Part shown: piece by piece, positions 4,569 to 41,773 of the stretch
Layout: each line of letters opens with the position of its first letter
How positions within the stretch are numbered: position 1 is the first letter of the stretch
Source: Actinomycetes bacterium
GTDB lineage: Bacteria > Actinomycetota > Acidimicrobiia > Acidimicrobiales > Ilumatobacteraceae
NCBI GenBank assembly: GCA_025360105.1
Contig: JANYCT010000039.1
Location: forward strand, 1-64,000
DNA length: 64,000 nucleotides
Reading direction: 5' to 3'
Notes under the pieces: generated by a model
What the model saw: only the letters and a program-made list of their open reading frames with translations
What the model was told of the DNA's origin: nothing
Database searches by the model: none
Position numbers and translations under genes: made by a program

Positions 4569-6383
4569 TCAGCTCACAGTCCAAACATTTGCATTCCAGG
4601 TCAAACCTGACGGGCCGTTGAACGACGGACCCGCCAGCTTCGGCGACCATGCCGGCATTTCCGCCAACTGGAACAGCGGGATCGTCCACACGTCATCGAG
4701 GATGGCGGCGTCGATCTTCTTCATGAGGTCGAGACGCTTGGTCTCGTCGAGCTCGCTATTGGCCTGCTTGTACAGGTCGGTCACGTTCTGGTTCACGTAG
4801 CCCTGGTAGTTACCGCCACCATCGATGGAGTAGATACCGGTGGCTGCCGAGAGCAGGGGGTTGCCGACCCACGCGAACAAGGCAACATCGAAGTCACTCT
4901 TTGGCAGGCGCTCCGCGTTGAACTTGGTGTCGCTGTCCTCGGCGATGTTGAAACCGGCTTGCTTGCACGACGCAATGGTGTTCTGCACAGTGTCCGAACG
5001 ACGCTGGATGCCCTTGTGGCTGATCTTGAAGGTCAGCTGCTGGCCACCCTTGGCGTAGAACCCATCACTGCCCATAACCCAGCCAGCACCTTCGAGAAGC
5101 TTCTTCGATGCGGCAACATCAAACGTGCCGTACTTGCTGAAGCGATCCTCATAGCCTTTTTGCTGCGGCATGAAGATGACAGAGTTGAGCGGCTTCGCAT
5201 CAGGGTTGATCGGTGCGATCAATTTGTCGATGATGTCCTGACGGTCGACGCAAGCGGCGAATGCCGCACGAACGGCCTTGTCGGCAAAGATCGGGTTCTT
5301 GACGTTCATGTCGTAGTGCTCGTACACGAGGCCCGACGCAGGCGAAAACTTCACATTCTTGGCGGCAGCCAACGTGGCTGCGACACCAGGGTCAGCCTGA
5401 GGCTGGATCGCCTGAATTTCACCATTCTCCAATGCTGCGGCCTGAGCCGACGCATCGGTGATCGTCTGCAGCGTGAGGGTTTCGAGGTTGCCGGGGGTGC
5501 CCCAGAACTTCTCGTTCTTCACGAGGGTGATGCCCTTGTCAGGAGTGTATGTACCAACGCGATACTGGGCACCGGAGAGGGCAACGGCAGGATCCCAACC
5601 GTTGAAGCCGGTGTTCCAGAACTTGCCGATCTTTTCGATCTCGGGCGAGTCGGTGGTGGCATCAACCTTGGTGATGTCGGCAACGCCGGTCTTGGTCTCG
5701 ATGATGTGCGCTGGCACGAAGTTTCCGAACAGACCCTTCCAGTCGGCGAATGGGGTGTCATACACGGTGGTGACGGTCTTGCCGCCATCCGAGCACGTGA
5801 CCGACTTGATCTGCTCGTAGCCGCTGGTGCCCGCCGCATCGAACACAGGAAGCGTCTCAGGAAGTTTCTGGCCGTCCTTGTCGGTAGCACCGGGACCCGT
5901 GAAATCAGGGTTCTTCACAGTGACTTTGCCGTTCTGCGACATATAGGCGAGGTAAAAGTCCTTGCAGTCAATGGCAACGCCATCGCTCCATACGGCTTTC
6001 GGATTGATCTTGTACACGATGGTCTGCGGAGCGCTCGAGGTGACCTCGGCCGACTGCAGCAAGTCCTTCGACAACACGTAGCTCAGCTTGTCGTCGATAA
6101 TGAACGAGCCAGGTTGCAGCATGTTCAAAACGACCGTGTTTGCGAATGAGTTCGCAGTCGAAGTCGAGTTGTTGTAGTTGACGCCTTCTTCTTCTTGGGC
6201 GTAGATCGCCTCGCCACCAGCTTTACCAGCGACGGCGGTATCGGCCGTGCTGGCACCGGTGGTGCCACCGGTGCTTGGTGCTGTTGTGCCATTGGGTGTC
6301 TTGCTGCTTGAGCTACATGCGCCTGCAACAAGAGCAAGCCCAAGAGCGAGTGCAGCGACTTGGCTGCGCTTTGAAATGCTCAC
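4569..6383 (-). CDS. oppA: Peptide ABC transporter substrate-binding lipoprotein (SBP family 5, OppA-like)
   Basis: 604 aa. The start is GTG 6383, preceded at good spacing by AGGAGG; about 20 in-frame codons upstream are rejected. A lipoprotein signal peptide ends in the lipobox LVAGAC with a following Ser run, then a Thr/Ser/Gly-rich linker (about residues 28-55). The body is an SBP_bac_5 fold: conserved blocks include the region around AVWSDG (near residue 130), the YEHYDMN segment and VRAAFAACVDR. It captures peptides outside the membrane and delivers them to OppBC. It is the first and probably most highly expressed gene of oppABCDF. Confidence 0.93.
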   Translation of the reverse strand: MSISKRSQVAALALGLALVAGACSSSSKTPNGTTAPSTGGTTGASTADTAVAGKAGGEAIYAQEEEGVNYNNSTSTANSFANTVVLNMLQPGSFIIDDKLSYVLSKDLLQSAEVTSSAPQTIVYKINPKAVWSDGVAIDCKDFYLAYMSQNGKVTVKNPDFTGPGATDKDGQKLPETLPVFDAAGTSGYEQIKSVTCSDGGKTVTTVYDTPFADWKGLFGNFVPAHIIETKTGVADITKVDATTDSPEIEKIGKFWNTGFNGWDPAVALSGAQYRVGTYTPDKGITLVKNEKFWGTPGNLETLTLQTITDASAQAAALENGEIQAIQPQADPGVAATLAAAKNVKFSPASGLVYEHYDMNVKNPIFADKAVRAAFAACVDRQDIIDKLIAPINPDAKPLNSVIFMPQQKGYEDRFSKYGTFDVAASKKLLEGAGWVMGSDGFYAKGGQQLTFKISHKGIQRRSDTVQNTIASCKQAGFNIAEDSDTKFNAERLPKSDFDVALFAWVGNPLLSAATGIYSIDGGGNYQGYVNQNVTDLYKQANSELDETKRLDLMKKIDAAILDDVWTIPLFQLAEMPAWSPKLAGPSFNGPSGLTWNANVWTVS

Positions 6384-39916: not shown

Positions 39917-40345
39917 CTACGCGTTGACGAGCACGAACATCAGCTCGCATTCGCACGCGGTTTCACCGTTGAGCAAGGCCTTGCCGGTTCCCTTGCCCGC
40001 GCGAGCGGACATGCGACCCAGCTGCACGGACAACTCGAGCGTGTCTCCGGGCACCACCTGACGGCGAAAGCGAGCACCGTCGAGGCCGCCGAACAACGGG
40101 AGCTTGCCGGCGAAACGCTCGTCGGTCAGCACCGCGATCGCGCCGACTTGGGCAATGGCCTCACACATCAACACGCCGGGCAGCGTGGGGCGGCCAGGGA
40201 AGTGTCCGGCGAAGAACCACTCGTCACCGGCGAGGTGCCACAGGCCGGTGGCGCTGAGGCCCGGCTCGAGGGCCGTGATTTCATCGACGAACAGAAACGG
40301 TGGTCGGTGGGCGATGACGTCGGCGGGCCGTGGAAACGGAGTCAT
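39917..40345 (-). CDS. fabZ: 3-hydroxyacyl-ACP dehydratase FabZ-like
   Basis: 142 aa single hot-dog domain. HRPPFLFVDEI and GHFPGRPTLPGVLMCEAIAQVG carry the catalytic His and Glu. The length fits FabZ. It would dehydrate 3-hydroxyacyl-ACP and so supply the step absent from the nearby fabDHG-acpP-fabF operon, which lies on the other strand 1 kb away. Its ATG overlaps the bcp stop as ATGA, so it is expressed with the peroxiredoxin. Confidence 0.9.
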   Translation of the reverse strand: MTPFPRPADVIAHRPPFLFVDEITALEPGLSATGLWHLAGDEWFFAGHFPGRPTLPGVLMCEAIAQVGAIAVLTDERFAGKLPLFGGLDGARFRRQVVPGDTLELSVQLGRMSARAGKGTGKALLNGETACECELMFVLVNA

Positions 40346-40806
40346 GCTCCGAGCGCCTGGAGCAGCTTGACAGGTGTGTCCTTCGGGCTGATCTTGTACC
40401 AGGCGTTCTCGACCGCGCCATCGGCATCGATGAGGAACGCGGAGCGCTCGATGCCCATGTAGGAGCGACCGTAGTTCTGCTTCTGCTTCCAGACGCCGAA
40501 CGCCTCGGCAAGTTCATGGTCCACGTCGGCGAGCAGCGGATACGGCAGCGAGTTCTTGTCGGCGAACTTCTTTTGCGACGCTGGCTTGTCGGGACTGACA
40601 CCGATGATCTGCGTGCCGCCGACCTGGCCGACGACGTCGCGCAGCGCGCAGGCCTGCTGGGTGCATCCGGGAGTGGACGCCTTTGGGTAGAAAAAGATCA
40701 GCGCTCGCTGGCCGCGCAGACCCGCCCAATCAAATGCAGTTCCGTCCTGATCAAGCAGGTCGGCAACGGGGGCGATATCACCAGGAGTGAGCATGTGCGG
40801 AGACAT
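40342..40806 (-). CDS. bcp: Thioredoxin-dependent peroxiredoxin (Bcp/PrxQ)
   Basis: About 154 aa. The peroxidatic Cys and a resolving Cys five residues on are in STPGCTQQACALRD, the atypical 2-Cys PrxQ arrangement. FFYPKASTPG and GVSPDKPASQKKFADK are typical. It reduces hydroperoxides with thioredoxin. Start ATG 40806 or the in-frame ATG 40794 both fit; the longer upstream frame is rejected as non-coding. It is first of a bcp-fabZ pair. Confidence 0.93.
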   Translation of the reverse strand: MSPHMLTPGDIAPVADLLDQDGTAFDWAGLRGQRALIFFYPKASTPGCTQQACALRDVVGQVGGTQIIGVSPDKPASQKKFADKNSLPYPLLADVDHELAEAFGVWKQKQNYGRSYMGIERSAFLIDADGAVENAWYKISPKDTPVKLLQALGA

Positions 40807-41036
40807 TAGCGCGCCCCGCCGGACGCTCGCGAGAACCACTCCACATGGCTTCGTTGACCGCATCTTTGTTCGAGTTCGATCAACTTCGAACGCGTTCTGT
40901 GGTCTCACTACGAAGCGTGACCAACATTTCCGAATCCTTTTCGGTTGCTTTTCCTTGCGCACGCCGAGCGATCGTGTTAGACATACTCCCGTTGGCAAGG
41001 GGCGATGCTCCTGAATCAGGTGAGGAGGTCAGGAAA

Positions 41037-41066
41037 ATGCGTGGAATTGTTGTTCGTCCTATCTGA
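41037..41066 (+). CDS. Micro-ORF copy 1 (peptide MRGIVVRPI)
   Basis: Nine codons plus TGA, preceded by a strong GAGGAGG Shine-Dalgarno at 41022-41028, 8 bp before ATG. The peptide MRGIVVRPI is identical to that of copy 2, 195 bp downstream. All five nucleotide differences between copies are T/C changes at third codon positions. No plus-strand gene follows for 5 kb, so it is not an ordinary leader peptide. I do not recognise a family. It could be a signalling, toxic or dual-function-RNA peptide. Expression is unproven. Confidence 0.5.
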   Translation: MRGIVVRPI

Positions 41067-41231
41067 AATTCCCACTCTGCGTAGCTTCTTTCCCACAGAG
41101 AGAAAGTTCACGTTCCGTGATTCTCCACGGTGTACCGCAGAGCTTCTCGGTTGACTGCCTCAGCGCTCAGCCATCTGGCCGACAAACCGTCGCCGGAGCC
41201 GTTTGTTCTTGCTTCTTGAAAGGTGCCCACT

Positions 41232-41261
41232 ATGCGTGGAATCGTCGTCCGCCCCATCTGA
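41232..41261 (+). CDS. Micro-ORF copy 2 (peptide MRGIVVRPI)
   Basis: Nine codons plus TGA with GAAAGGTG (41218-41225) 6 bp upstream of ATG. It encodes the same peptide as copy 1. The flanking sequence is not similar between copies, so the identity is confined to the coding part. A perfect 6-bp hairpin with a 3-nt loop follows at 41279-41293 and may end a short transcript. The peptide is cationic with a hydrophobic centre (two Arg, IVV). Confidence 0.5.
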   Translation: MRGIVVRPI

Positions 41262-41446
41262 ATCGTTGTCGTGTAACTCGGTCGCCGCGACCGCAATCGT
41301 CGTGCCGCGTCGTGTTCCAAGACTCCCCACCAAGTCCTCCCGGATCGCCTAGCAGCCTGCCTGCAGGACAATCCGAGCCGCTCGGCCCCATCAAGCGAAG
41401 ATTCGCAACATCCGCAGAGCTGTTTCGTTTGCGTTTAGCGCAGGCG

Positions 41447-41773
41447 TCAGCTCGCTGAGTCCACTCGCGTCTGCCGCTTCAGGCCGTGGCCGAAAAATCC
41501 GCCACGTGGCCGTGCGTGAGCGTGGTAGTGATGGGGGATAGAGCGCATGTTGTCGTCCACGTAGTGGACGAAGTCGAAGTGTGTCGTCACAACCAACCCC
41601 AACTGTTGATGCATGTACTGCTTCACAGCGTCTGGCGGTGACGCGTCGTGCTCACGCCAGACCACCATCGGCACCGAGCACATCTCGCATTCGGCAATCC
41701 AGCACACCTCGTCCTCGTAGAACCAGGACGTGATGCGCGCCGCTTCACACAGATCGCAATCGTTGCTTATCAC
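41447..41773 (-). CDS. Small HIT-like protein with paired CxxC motifs
   Basis: 108 aa. GTG 41773 is chosen because AGAAGGAG precedes it at good spacing; an upstream in-frame extension is rejected. Near the N-terminus CDLC and 20-odd residues later CEMC could bind zinc. The C-terminal part contains HYHAHAR, which fits the histidine-triad pattern H-x-H-x-H, where x is hydrophobic or small. The spacing from the Cys pairs resembles HIT proteins that hydrolyse nucleotide phosphoramidates. VDDNMRSIPHHYHAHARPRGGF looks strongly conserved-type. Function is unassigned. It is downstream of the terminator of the fasciclin gene. Confidence 0.72.
   Translation of the reverse strand: MISNDCDLCEAARITSWFYEDEVCWIAECEMCSVPMVVWREHDASPPDAVKQYMHQQLGLVVTTHFDFVHYVDDNMRSIPHHYHAHARPRGGFFGHGLKRQTRVDSAS

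Follow-up and report, generated by a model that had tools for sequence, protein, structure and literature searches.

To our knowledge, no annotation cut-off is low enough to admit genes of 7-10 codons, and only very few of these have been proven. The closest kind to the family described here is the leaderless communication peptide (LCP) of Firmicutes, in particular SIP, which acts with RopB-type receptors and is encoded by a stand-alone ultrasmall ORF of 24 bp, giving 8 residues (PMC10518010). The LCP genes adjoin a gene encoding a receptor of the RRNPP family (PMC10518010). The likeness lies in the lack of a signal sequence and a cleavage site, in a gene that annotation misses, and in a peptide code that varies by species. 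On the other hand, neither an RRNPP-family cytosolic receptor nor any other regulator adjoins the array in the window (the whole stretch of 64,000 nucleotides that was analysed), the family copies often occur in tandem, and the host is an actinomycetote. Further, the family peptides are basic, whereas the SIP peptides are strongly hydrophobic.

Among the shortest known genes is also mccA, the 7-codon microcin C precursor, whose length is thought to favour reiterative translation, since one ribosome can reiteratively translate ORFs of 2-8 codons (PMC6495379). Such translation would suit the family micro-ORFs, but mccA is clustered with modification enzymes, and nothing MccB-like was found near the window array. 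Leader peptides and attenuator uORFs share with the family the very short ORF, the strong ribosome site, and the conserved C-terminal end; however, the family ORF ends at a convergent gene, with no sense gene downstream. Dual-function small RNAs are similar in being short autonomous intergenic transcripts with a tiny ORF, whereas here it is the ORF that is conserved, with no sign of RNA structure in the folding of the window segments or in Rfam, and no leader conservation beyond the genus. Finally, type I toxins are also encoded by small intergenic genes in tandem copies, but the family peptides, basic and 7-10 residues long, have no membrane-spanning hydrophobic stretch.

Two MRGIVVRPI micro-ORFs in the window

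The array and its neighbours consist of the following features, in coordinates of the window.

40345-40794, minus strand: divergent neighbour, a Bcp/PrxQ-type thiol peroxidase; context outside the unit, not beside the array in several species
40955-40983, plus strand: putative array promoter TTGCGC-N17-TAGACA, from reading of the sequence and the sister alignment; weak, with no call in the consensus scan
41022-41028, plus strand: Shine-Dalgarno sequence GAGGAGG of micro-ORF 1; relatives keep GAGGAGG or AGGAGG
41037-41066, plus strand: micro-ORF 1, ATGCGTGGAATTGTTGTTCGTCCTATCTGA (array unit 1), MRGIVVRPI-TGA; orthologous in G298, G303, G304, G305, and G299
41073-41083: degenerate box CACTCTGCGTA; the next box lies 36 bp further, likewise in G298, G299, and G300
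about 41099-41130, plus strand: vestige of the middle unit, GAAAG and CAC-N5-GTG without a start codon, from the sister alignment; G299 and G300 have intact counterparts at this place, ORF 2 and copy A, respectively
41109-41119: palindromic box CACGTTCCGTG, CAC-N5-GTG
41218-41223, plus strand: Shine-Dalgarno sequence GAAAGG of micro-ORF 2; the motif is common to most family members
41228-41238: palindromic box CACTATGCGTG, overlapping the start of micro-ORF 2
41232-41261, plus strand: micro-ORF 2, ATGCGTGGAATCGTCGTCCGCCCCATCTGA (array unit 3), MRGIVVRPI-TGA; orthologue of G300 copy B and of a start-less relic in G298
41450-41773, minus strand: convergent neighbour, an uncharacterised Cys/His-rich protein; context, beside every micro-ORF with a checkable flank

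The original prediction stated that the two ORFs encode the same peptide, end with TGA, and possess a Shine-Dalgarno sequence each, which is borne out by the coordinates and the sequence; in both cases, 8 nt separate the Shine-Dalgarno sequence from its ATG. The copies are the only two exact coding matches to MRGIVVRPI in the 3.9 Mb genome. They differ at five positions, all of them third-position T/C differences without an amino-acid change, as had been claimed; the probability that five random substitutions in the ORF would all be silent is low (P ~0.001). The absence of a plus-strand gene downstream was confirmed as well, while the spacer, given as 640 bp, measures 655 bp (40795-41449). The flanks of the ORFs had been described as unrelated, and this did not wholly hold: the alignment with sister species reveals an older tandem array, of which the two ORFs and a vestige between them are what is left. 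According to the gap alignment, the ancestral array had about three units. The window retains units 1 and 3, unit 2 being a start-less relic; G299 has kept units 1 and 2 in intact form, and G300 units 2 and 3. In one of the sister species (L003, about 6080-6140), a short tandem repeat TTACGGGTTATGAG adjoins the array.

A micro-ORF family at one chromosomal site

Relatives within the genus of the window were sought with a degenerate pattern for MRGIVVRPI, and then with a few mismatches permitted. The pattern matched MRGIVVRPI in G298, and the mismatch search yielded MRGILVRPC twice in G300, MRGIVRKPI in G303, and MRGIVMKPI in G305. G304 has a copy with a GTG start, and two tandem copies of MRGLIVRPC were seen in G299 upon inspection of the syntenic gap by hand. 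Of the nine genomes in the genus, seven have the peptide or a clear variant at this location, an outcome opposite to the refuting condition set for the original prediction (absence from related genomes together with non-synonymous change). Two kinds of matches elsewhere were rejected: MRGIVLRPA in G337 (L011), a member of another genus, lies antisense within a luciferase-like gene and was ascribed to chance, and none of the three-mismatch matches in G319, G351, G380, G426, G463, and G167 keeps the motif. A pattern search in viral contigs gave no match.

For other genera, the Cys/His-rich gene served as an anchor, and the retrieved gaps were scanned for Shine-Dalgarno-led ORFs. The peptides found are M[NSTI]GRPI[RK][RH]PC in genus g8 (for instance, MNGRPIRRPC), MHYVRPC in g2, MNLTKPC, three in tandem, in g184, MRSPINRPF in g180, and MKPIVRAY, MKRFGSRPQ, and MSKRTTNRPQ in g188. 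The peptides of g4, namely MFIVKGIR, MFIVKYAR, MFSYKLR, M[WI]KVIG[AG]VK, and MHRVIGGVK, have no [RK]Px end. The number of tandem copies in the family reaches three. In total, by a hand tally that includes later finds, micro-ORFs of 7-10 codons occupy the same site on the same strand in 41 genomes (the window and 40 others) of eight genera of one family; the genomes compared are mostly draft assemblies, many of them in many contigs. Rfam, at both gathering and relaxed thresholds, has no match for the window array, and no description of the micro-ORF family was found in Pfam, NCBIfam, or the literature (mainly open papers), so that the earlier remark that no such family had been described stands as far as these sources reach. 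The two window copies thus belong to a family of 7-10-codon genes that had not been recognised before and that selection has maintained at a single chromosomal spot in at least 41 related actinobacterial species.

A Shine-Dalgarno-led ORF of 7-10 codons is present in 35 of the 37 syntenic gaps that are about 190 bp or longer. In 100 shuffles preserving the dinucleotide content, the mean was 0.93 and the highest value 4, although the gaps are not 37 independent events, since many come from closely related species. The [RK]-P-x-stop end occurs in 28 of the gap ORFs and in none of the shuffles, and Asp or Glu occurs in no family peptide, as opposed to 40 of the 97 shuffled ORFs; since the family was partly recognised by these features, the shuffle comparison is descriptive as regards the motif, while counting ORFs of 7-10 codons irrespective of sequence is less affected. 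Outside the family, an ORF of this kind occurs at only two of the 87 loci with the same gene, none has the [RK]Px motif, and no recurring micro-ORF was found in this gap.

The pattern of substitutions indicates that the peptide itself is under purifying selection. Pairwise comparison of the 12 distinct ORF sequences from g8 yields 202 differences at the third codon position, 56 at the first, and 66 at the second. The balance is weaker in g1 (155 at the third position versus 110 at the first and 54 at the second) because of genuine replacements between species, for instance, V-to-M and R-to-K. In both genera, the changes are silent or conservative, including R-to-K through CGC-to-AAG. Tandem copies in four genomes (G000, G299, G300, and G427) encode identical peptides within each genome, and 11 of 11 differences between them are silent (joint P ~7e-7 in a crude random-substitution model); gene conversion between the copies could contribute to this silent-only divergence. 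The peptide varies between genomes and species, but never between copies in one genome, and in most genera its [RK]Px C-terminus is better conserved than the N-terminus. The earlier suggestion of selection on the peptide is thus upheld by the variants at the same site in related genomes, where the change is mostly silent or conservative, and from this selection we infer that the micro-ORFs are translated.

The order at the site in the family is FabZ/Bcp, the gap, and the Cys/His-rich gene, with the micro-ORF on the strand opposite to its neighbours. In the genus of the window, the micro-ORFs are flanked by Bcp and the Cys/His-rich gene, except for G300, where FabZ stands in place of Bcp. The next gene is convergent at every syntenic locus, with no sense gene downstream anywhere, and the micro-ORF stop is often located 2-30 nt from the stop of the convergent gene or beyond it; in several species, it lies 2-5 nt from the end of this gene or overlaps it. 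A classical leader peptide is therefore unlikely, and the dismissal of this role in the original prediction is supported, as neighbours are found on the other strand only. The window neighbourhood comprises FabG, ACP, FabF, a hydrolase, FabZ, Bcp, the Cys/His-rich protein, fasciclin, and Trp enzymes; no receptor, exporter, modifying enzyme, or immunity gene was found among the tested window neighbours.

The Cys/His-rich protein has the motif CxxC...CxxC...DHYHAHARPR and no match in Pfam or NCBIfam. Its HxHxH motif may point to zinc binding; its predicted structure is too poor to use (mean pLDDT 45). The gene is present in 81 of 222 genomes of the family and 107 of 296 genomes of the order. In genera g9 and g189, its distance to the other neighbour is 0-40 bp, which leaves no room for a micro-ORF unit. 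Since the micro-ORF is absent from many family members, including whole genera with nearly contiguous neighbours, its peptide must be dispensable.

Several side observations were made at these loci. The long gap between Bcp and the Cys/His-rich gene in L062 (G425) contains no micro-ORF but, by eye, what seem to be genes for a toxin of the PIN type and an antitoxin of the AbrB type. In the window (40780-40810, minus strand), the Bcp start seems to lie a few bases past a TANNNT hexamer, so that its mRNA may be leaderless. Genus g8 (for instance, L088 and L094) has a possible hairpin before the ribosome site, CUGUU-CCUC-AACAG or CUGUC-CCUC-GACAG, and a second one across the stop codon, UUGCUG-N4-CAGCAA; these hairpins show apparent compensatory change and are lineage-specific.

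The CAC-N5-GTG promoter element

The gaps contain 48 occurrences of CAC-N5-GTG versus 3.9 expected, a 12-fold excess that other spacings do not approach. Neither the remainder of the window nor the loci outside the family showed enrichment. In most genera, a TTGCAA-type hexamer is followed by YCAC-N5-GTG-N-TANNNT, the palindrome abutting the -10 hexamer and the hexamers being 19 bp apart. A MerR-type arrangement was considered in view of the 19-bp spacer and set aside, since the palindrome is not centred between the hexamers but adjoins the -10 one. Genus g8 has two boxes at a distance of 52-53 bp, and in the genus of the window the box stands away from the -10 hexamer or overlaps the ORF starts. 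The possibility that CTACG-NN-GCGTG is a general genomic element was rejected, as this sequence showed no enrichment above its control.

A search with the promoter pattern in 27 genome assemblies produced 11 matches, ten of them at the micro-ORF locus. These matches exposed three new micro-ORFs, encoding MRTKPTGRPC (G500), MRGLVRPI (G501), and MYYVKPC (G401). G501 belongs to a genus other than that of the window; its MRGLVRPI is close to MRGIVVRPI. No other independent check supports the family as strongly as the new micro-ORFs obtained in this way.

Possible roles of the micropeptides

At the sequence level, the comparison establishes the ORF family and its conserved site, the promoter element unique to it, the selection on amino acids, and the agreement of tandem copies in their peptide. 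As the copies agree within a genome and the peptides vary between genomes, we favour an autonomous gene for an ultrasmall, leaderless basic peptide acting in trans, and would give this reading an even chance. The micro-ORF would be transcribed from its own promoter into a short monocistronic RNA, under the control of a dedicated regulator binding CAC-N5-GTG. Strong ribosome sites would drive translation, with the yield increased by tandem copies and probably by repeated re-initiation on so short an ORF. The RNA and the product, a basic leaderless peptide of 7-10 residues with the [R/K]-P-x end in most species, would both accumulate. A partner specific to the species would recognise the peptide, which would most likely serve as a signal, either inside the cell or after export. 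Identity within a genome and difference between genomes suggest that the peptide must match this partner.

Since the C-terminus is the best kept part of the peptide in most genera, the main rival is nascent-chain arrest, in which the ribosome would stall at [R/K]-P-x-stop and control its own RNA in cis, the free peptide having no function. The controlled step would be the stability of the RNA, the translation of the following copy, or read-through antisense to the convergent gene, towards which the RNA would head; a penultimate proline before the stop codon is a plausible context for slow termination. Such arrest is nevertheless unlikely: a sense target is found downstream in no genome, stops within 5 nt of the convergent stop in several species leave no room for an attenuator, the g4 peptides lack the motif, and cis action does not need identical peptides in tandem copies. 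Rather improbable, in our opinion, is a dual-function small RNA that would act by base-pairing with targets as well as encode a tiny peptide, although the transcript is likely to be short and autonomous, and a hairpin-like 5' segment before ORF 1 is, by eye, common to sister species. The window segments fold no better than shuffles and match nothing in Rfam, and the ORF with its ribosome site persists from genus to genus, whereas the 5' leader does not, so that a function of the RNA would be secondary at best. Nothing was found in support of this role or of the toxic peptide that the original prediction had also entertained.

We give little credence to a peptide antibiotic or a self-acting translation inhibitor, that is, a microcin C-like precursor or an Arg/Pro-rich peptide acting on the ribosome. 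Microcin C precursors are indeed 7-codon genes (PMC6495379), and the family peptides are basic and mostly contain Arg-Pro; however, the tested neighbours include no modifying enzyme, exporter, or immunity gene, and the locus is a fixed chromosomal one, not a mobile cluster. It is very improbable that the DNA itself matters, as a protein-binding array of CAC-N5-GTG boxes with incidental ORFs. The box is repeated and strongly enriched, stands 52-53 bp apart in g8, overlaps some ORF starts, and survives in start-less vestiges, but such an array would leave unexplained the silent-only divergence, the R-to-K replacements, the Shine-Dalgarno sequences, and the [RK]Px endings absent in shuffles. While a single nine-codon ORF is weak evidence, chance or a recent functionless duplication can hardly account for the recurrence at one site throughout the family, far above shuffles, or for the success of the blind prediction from the promoter.

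If the trans-acting micropeptide is the correct reading, the family may, as we propose tentatively, represent a new class of peptide regulators in Actinobacteria. These would be single-locus tandem genes of 7-10 codons, in which the finished peptide is the product, lineage-specific and matched to a partner (a receptor, the ribosome, or a regulator), and a dedicated regulator binds CAC-N5-GTG. Comparative genomics alone has led to a family of 7-10-codon genes in 41 species and to a promoter element that predicts new members. The combination of a syntenic gap, a Shine-Dalgarno sequence, and silent divergence of tandem copies provides a recipe for finding further families, and peptide chemistry and genetics have an exact target in this locus. 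Should the peptide prove to be a signal, leaderless peptide signalling would reach beyond the Firmicutes.
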